A stretch of 64,000 nucleotides of DNA from positions 62,001 through 126,000 of the forward strand of contig JAUWZS010000002.1 of assembly GCA_030615205.1 (NCBI GenBank). Reading direction: 5' to 3'. A program made the translations under genes and the position numbers. A model generated the notes under the pieces. The model saw only the letters and a program-made list of their open reading frames with translations. It ran no database searches and was not told the DNA's origin. This DNA comes from Candidatus Aenigmatarchaeota archaeon. Lineage in GTDB: Archaea > Aenigmatarchaeota > Aenigmatarchaeia > CG10238-14 > SCSR01. This document shows positions 43,417 through 45,513 of the stretch, one piece after another. Position 1 is the first letter of the stretch. Each line of letters opens with the position of its first letter.

Positions 43417-43567
43417 TGCTCCCGACGGGATTTGAACCCGTGCCATCAGGTATCTACGTTAACTTTTTTTATTTTTTGTTTTTTGCTGTCATAGTCTTTT
43501 ACGACTCTACGCTTTCCAAGTATAACTCGAAAGCCTGAGATCCTTGACCGGACTAGACGACGGGAGC
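43417..43567 (-). tRNA. tRNA-Glu(TTC) with predicted 76-nt intron at 43452..43527 (position 37/38)
   Basis: GCTCCCG/CGGGAGC, A73; anticodon stem TCAGG/CCTGA; loop CTTTCG-[76 nt]-A; T arm ACGGGTTCAAATCCCGT; exons total 75 nt. Confidence 0.88.
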
Positions 43568-45139: not shown

Positions 45140-45228
45140 TGGGCCGGGTGAGATTTGAACTCACGACCGCTCGGTGTCTGATTTTTTATTATCAGCCGAG
45201 TGCTCTAACCAAACTAAGCCACCGGCCC
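45140..45228 (-). tRNA. tRNA-Ile(GAT) with predicted 14-nt intron at 45176..45189 (position 37/38)
   Basis: GGGCCGG/CCGGCCC, A73; CTCGG/CCGAG enclosing CTGATAATAAAAAATCAGACA; CTGAT/ATCAG pairing; T arm GTGAGTTCAAATCTCAC. Confidence 0.9.
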
Positions 45229-45339: not shown

Positions 45340-45453
45340 GGGCCGATAGATCAATGGTAGAAACTTTTGGAAAAAGTTTCATCAAAACCAAAAGTTGTCA
45401 ATATCGCTTCCCTCGCACGGAAGAGGCTCCGGGTTCGAGTCCCGGTCGGTCCA
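45340..45453 (+). tRNA. tRNA-Ala(CGC) with predicted 42-nt intron in the D-stem, 45362..45403 (approximately position 23/24)
   Basis: GGGCCGA/TCGGTCC with G3-U70 and A73; anticodon arm CTTCC-CTCGCAC-GGAAG; T arm CCGGGTTCGAGTCCCGG; D arm GATC-AATGGTA-GA[42 nt]TC. Confidence 0.85.
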
Positions 45454-45513
45454 CTTTTTTATAAAAGTTAATATAGAGAAGTCAGAGGCTAAAGATGTCA
45501 GAGGTTAGAAGCT

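Follow-up and report, generated by a model that had tools for sequence, protein, structure and literature searches.

A noncanonical BHB intron in the D arm of an Aenigmatarchaeota tRNA-Ala(CGC), probably ancestral and enlarged by a palindromic repeat

The tRNA-Ala(CGC) gene of a DPANN archaeon of the lineage Aenigmatarchaeota is interrupted in its D-stem by a 42-nt segment. We conclude that this is very probably a working single-copy gene carrying a noncanonical BHB intron at tRNA position 22/23, and that the intron is ancestral and was enlarged in this genome by a repeat. The gene is found in the window, the whole stretch of 64,000 nt that was analysed, which is located in contig C26 of a 1.17-Mb assembly that is 88.5% complete.

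Gene structure and splice sites

The locus consists of two tRNA halves separated by an insertion (Table 1), and the sequence, coordinates, tRNA identity and intron length given in a preliminary description of this DNA were borne out. With the intron removed, ARAGORN returned a perfect tRNA-Ala(CGC) with 21/21 stem pairs and the G3-U70 pair, and the D arm (GATC-AATGGTA-GATC) and anticodon arm (CTTCC-CTCGCAC-GGAAG) were those claimed earlier for removal of 45362..45403. Deletion of 45361..45402 is equivalent, as it leaves an identical mature tRNA. On the unspliced locus, ARAGORN detected no gene, and Rfam gave a sub-threshold match of 25.6 bits to the 3' part only. Judging by its sequence, the oligo-T run directly downstream is a probable transcription terminator. 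The window also contains, on the minus strand, a tRNA-Ile(GAT) gene with a 14-nt canonical intron (45140-45228), divergent from the Ala gene, and a tRNA gene with long or multiple introns (43417-43567; Rfam, 45.5 bits).

Table 1. Features of the tRNA-Ala(CGC) locus (window coordinates) and of the EndA gene
Feature	Coordinates	Strand	Remarks
tRNA-Ala(CGC) gene, pre-tRNA with one intron	45340..45453	+	Spliced form is a 21/21-pair tRNA-Ala(cgc)
Exon 1, acceptor 5' strand through G22	45340..45360	+	D-stem 5' strand 45349-45352; BHB-consistent junction
Intron of 42 nt, tRNA positions 22/23, D-stem 3' strand	45361..45402	+	Strict 3-4-3 BHB; helix kept in 12/12 homologous introns
Exon 2, A23 through A73	45403..45453	+	Anticodon CGC at 45414-45416
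BHB central helix, exon strand UGGU, D-loop G18 G19 region	45355..45358	+	Partner 45397-45400; covariation in relatives
5' bulge A G^A	45359..45361	+	Predicted 5' splice site after 45360
Intron helix h', 5' arm AACTTTTGG	45362..45370	+	9 bp with 45388-45396
Intron helix h', 3' arm CCAAAAGTT	45388..45396	+	9 bp with 45362-45370
BHB central helix, intron strand GUCA	45397..45400	+	Partner 45355-45358
3' bulge A U^A	45401..45403	+	Predicted 3' splice site after 45402
Copy of dispersed element GAAACTTTT-nn-AAAAGTTTC-ATCAAAA, 9-bp palindrome and tail	45360..45387	+	5' part of an intron that is most likely older
Oligo-T directly downstream of tRNA-Ala(CGC)	45455..45460	+	Seen in sequence; putative terminator
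Only EndA found	G000 C29:120231-120509; L031 1474-2157	- (C29)	Ala for catalytic Lys

The preliminary description could fit no clean 3-4-3 BHB motif to the insertion. We found a strict one at G22^A23, with predicted cuts one base earlier than had been placed there, at 45360/45361 and 45402/45403. Its central helix is UGGU/GUCA and its bulges are AG^A and AU^A; the perfect 9-nt complement that had been noticed before forms the intron helix (h') of 9 bp. Junction 45361/45362 with 45403/45404 was dropped, as it gives only 1/4 central-helix pairs against the strict BHB one base 5'. An unguided scan of all BHB-compatible deletions ranked 45360/45361 with 45402/45403 first. Among 20,000 shuffled introns, a four-pair central helix (H=4) with h' of at least 9 bp occurred in none, and H=4 with h' of at least 4 bp in 16. 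The predicted spliced junction connects ATGGTAG to ATCGCTTCC, that is, G22 to A23. The minimum-energy fold of the pre-tRNA contains the 9-bp intron helix and lacks the central helix; when the BHB was enforced, its outer side was closed by part of the D-stem (GAU/AUC), at an energy penalty of 3.4 kcal/mol for the CGC gene and 1.5 kcal/mol for the GGC gene.

In the processing that we propose, UGGU of the D-loop would pair with GUCA near the 3' end of the intron, forming a 4-bp central helix that is flanked by two 3-nt bulges and extended by the 9-bp intron helix. Each bulge would then be cut by EndA past its second base, at 45360/45361 and 45402/45403, and a ligase would join G22 to A23, thereby restoring the D-stem. 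We infer that the pre-tRNA is expressed, cleaved by EndA and ligated.

The assembly contains three Ala tRNAs, CGC, GGC and TGC, whose exon halves are nearly identical except in the anticodon arm. The tRNA-Ala(GGC) gene (C29:239743-239851) carries a 37-nt version of the CGC intron, near-identical to it in the 5' half, with its own BHB (H UGGU/GCCA, h' 7 bp), while tRNA-Ala(TGC) is intronless. The check for a second intact tRNA-Ala(CGC), which the preliminary description had called for, found none in the assembly, which at 88.5% completeness could be missing one. Strict-BHB noncanonical introns were also found in the D-loop of tRNA-Pro(CGG) and of tRNA-Phe(GAA) and at 31/32 of tRNA-Thr(TGT), all on contig C29 of this genome (G000), the three loci being C29:226731-226826 (-), C29:120856-120915 (-) and C29:128438-128531 (+). 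Bacterial-looking intronless tRNAs occur on the small contigs C2, C13, C19 and C22 of G000, which are possibly contamination of the assembly.

Conservation of the intron in relatives

We searched 36 genomes of the order by pattern for an insertion at 22/23 in tRNA-Ala and found an intron at the same position in ten tRNA-Ala genes of nine other genomes, while the reversed control pattern gave 0 matches in the 36 genomes. In G004, the intron is present in Ala(CGC) itself, with a length of 11 nt, and some relatives have no intron at 22/23. The introns of the relatives are 11-16 nt long, with one of 35 nt. The shortest have a scant intron helix or none, which places their 5' site in a loop and makes the motif a relaxed one.

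The central helix was paired in all 12 introns, the ten of the relatives and the two of this genome. At one helix pair, a compensatory C-G/U-A change was observed (UGGU/NYCA versus CGGU/NYCG): exon UGGU stands opposite intron ACCA, GCCA or GUCA, and exon CGGU opposite intron GCCG, ACCG or GUCG. Two further central-helix pairs showed one-sided changes. When the intron strands were permuted, all 12 stayed paired in only 144/100,000 permutations, a figure to be read with the 12 introns not being independent, as the relatives share descent. In the eight distinct rows, 100% of cells were paired, compared with 12-50% in slid controls. The same position and the helix pairing in all 12 introns, with a compensatory change, indicate an ancestral BHB intron; on this sequence comparison, the 22/23 intron of tRNA-Ala is old in the family and variably lost.

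The published list of archaeal noncanonical intron sites already includes 22/23 (PMC4090602), so the intron is of a known kind, newly found in a DPANN lineage. The earlier remark that such introns are known mainly from Thermoproteales-type crenarchaea suits the noncanonical position and does not suit the host, which is no crenarchaeon; its genome is small (1.17 Mb, of the same class as Aenigmatarchaeota MAGs), and by its relatives it belongs to the DPANN Aenigmatarchaeota. Like the noncanonical BHB introns of Thermoproteales, Thaumarchaeota and Nanoarchaeum, the intron is short, sits at 22/23 in the D arm and has the same 3-4-3 BHB. What sets it apart is its DPANN host and a single family in which some introns are minimal (11-16 nt) and others enlarged by the repeat (37-42 nt).

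Instead of being inherited, the intron might have arrived by tRNA intron transposition like that proposed for Thermoproteales, either from one Ala gene to another or from an outside source. The near-identical intron 5' halves of the CGC and GGC genes and the lack of an intron in Ala(TGC) would fit such an origin, and large-scale transposition of tRNA introns in Thermoproteales (Fujishima 2010, as cited in PMC4090602) provides a precedent. However, the exon halves of the Ala genes are themselves nearly identical outside the anticodon arm, so that duplication or gene conversion explains the sharing equally well, and the intron position is constant in the relatives. We therefore regard transposition as unlikely, though worth keeping in mind beside inheritance.

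A dispersed palindromic repeat within the intron

The 37-42 nt introns of this genome differ from the short introns of the relatives by a 5' segment. Together with the last exon base, this segment is GAAACTTTTGGAAAAAGTTTCATCAAAA, a 28-nt element composed of a 9-bp palindrome and an ATCAAAA tail, whose first G doubles as the last base of exon 1 in tRNA-Ala(CGC). The element is absent from the homologous introns of the relatives, and its only 2 copies in this genome are both in tRNA-Ala introns (CGC and GGC). The self-pairing of the CGC intron has two parts: the palindromic repeat at 45360-45387, which is putatively an insertion, and, 3' of it, the BHB strand, which is older. We propose that the dispersed repeat arrived by insertion beside the 5' splice site, which would have produced the larger intron of the CGC and GGC genes.

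The pattern GAAACTTT-N(0-8)-AAAGTTTCATCAAA was found in 11/156 genomes of the class, and its reversed control in 0/156. Beyond one repeat-rich genus, at least 7 of 13 copies lie inside tRNA genes (Ala, Gly, His, Arg, Asp and others) according to flank inspection, in which some tRNA assignments were made by eye; tRNA genes themselves make up a far smaller part of the genome. Automated two-intron solutions are unreliable for multi-intron DPANN tRNAs, so only single-intron cases with a clear BHB or element-spanning tRNA models were taken as firm. The firm cases of introns with both BHB and element are Ala(TGC) at 37/38 (31 nt; L135, L220, L230), Glu(CTC), Gly(TCC) and Arg(TCT), and tRNA covariance matches span the element in L093, L135, L137, L168, L220 and L221.

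These cases bear on the idea that the repeat created the intron, with a mobile palindrome inserting into an intact tRNA gene and being spliceable at once. In several unrelated DPANN tRNA introns the element starts at the 5' splice site or a few bases from it, and the 31-nt Ala(TGC) introns consist almost wholly of the element, whose own CAAA pairs with the exon. For the present locus, though, the relatives have short, element-free introns at the same site, which means that the intron came first. We rejected the repeat as creator of the tRNA-Ala(CGC) intron on this ground and give that origin a low probability; the intron is most likely older than the repeat here. A pseudogene, a possibility that the preliminary description had raised and that would here be a gene broken by repeat insertion and left unspliced, could draw on the dispersed palindrome in the inserted segment and on the failure of ARAGORN to recognise the unspliced gene, but was rejected as very improbable given the perfect exons, the finding of no second Ala(CGC) copy in the 88.5%-complete assembly, the same structure in the GGC gene and the retention of the 22/23 intron with a covarying BHB helix in relatives.

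The repeat is not confined to tRNA introns. Among the matches listed in a public genome scan, it was present in Micrarchaeota, Diapherotrites, Nanoarchaeota, Woesearchaeota, Aenigmatarchaeota, Thermococcus, Methanocaldococcus and some bacteria. Several copies of 27-28 nt start -2 to +4 nt from upstream stop codons (L234-L251, G077, repeat-rich Aenigmatarchaeota), and L245 contains a perfect 27-nt tandem array. In five Thermococcus loci (L121, L123, L126, L133, L159) the element starts 2-3 nt past tRNA 3' ends, and in L208 (about 4400, minus strand) it abuts the 16S rRNA 3' end, with GATCACCTC directly followed by GAAACTTTT. At one orthologous site, a single case, the element is present in G077 and there is none at the aligned site in G109. 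Related units have different covarying stems, for example GAAGCTTTT...AAAAGCTTC-AGCAAAA and TGACCTTTTT...AAAAAGGTCA-ATCAAAA. Such units, each a hairpin followed by NNCAAAA, were seen in L137, L223, L176, L201 and L254; some of them lie within tRNA introns, and others form tandems with the GAAAC type.

Repetitive extragenic palindromes and IS200/IS605-derived repeats are likewise short dispersed hairpins, often located just 3' of genes. In contrast to these types, a Y1 transposase (PF01797) was absent from 10/11 genomes carrying the element, and with its presence in only 1/11 carriers this enzyme was rejected as the mobiliser. The element recurs across tRNA genes and positions as known intron sequences do, but what recurs here is a palindrome with tail, 28 nt in all, that is found in several phyla and beyond tRNA genes as well. 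The part of the literature covered yielded no published description of the repeat. As a tentative suggestion, one repeat family (a hairpin with a CTTTT...AAAAG core, followed by NNCAAAA) may spread among archaea, with landing sites directly 3' of stop codons and tRNA genes and within tRNA introns. In DPANN archaea, tRNA introns might repeatedly be built or lengthened from it, since its hairpin can take the role of intron helix and its NNCAAA tail that of a BHB strand.

The splicing endonuclease and significance of the intron

Identification of the splicing endonuclease, proposed earlier as a check, yielded one EndA gene in the genome, with PF01974 and PF02778 in a single protein of ~190 aa, though with an altered active site. 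Alignment with M. jannaschii EndA showed that the catalytic Tyr and His are kept, while the catalytic Lys is replaced by Ala (RKK to RAT). Each of the 13 family EndAs in the alignment has Ala at this site, where related families carry A, T or S. An extra conserved lysine-rich segment, LKRGPK, lies between the catalytic Tyr and His.

According to a review, the three catalytic residues are conserved across four EndA types, and efficient removal of relaxed-motif introns is reported only for the (alpha-beta)2 and epsilon2 types (PMC6379350; see also PMC12397907). Compared with the reported conservation, the Lys-less EndA makes this lineage an exception worth testing, and it is the main caveat to our interpretation. 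The epsilon2-type (ARMAN-2) and (alpha-beta)2 EndAs have broad specificity and remove introns at noncanonical positions, and some relatives in the order have EndAs of ~400 aa. In the present family, by contrast, the only EndA is ~190 aa long and lacks the usual catalytic lysine. With noncanonical and partly relaxed introns in the same lineage, this Lys-less EndA offers a clear biochemical test case.

These results extend D-arm tRNA introns to a DPANN family. They also offer a rare before-and-after view of a single intron at a fixed site, which is minimal in the relatives (11-16 nt) and enlarged by the repeat here (37-42 nt), and through the shared repeat the gain and growth of archaeal tRNA introns become directly testable.
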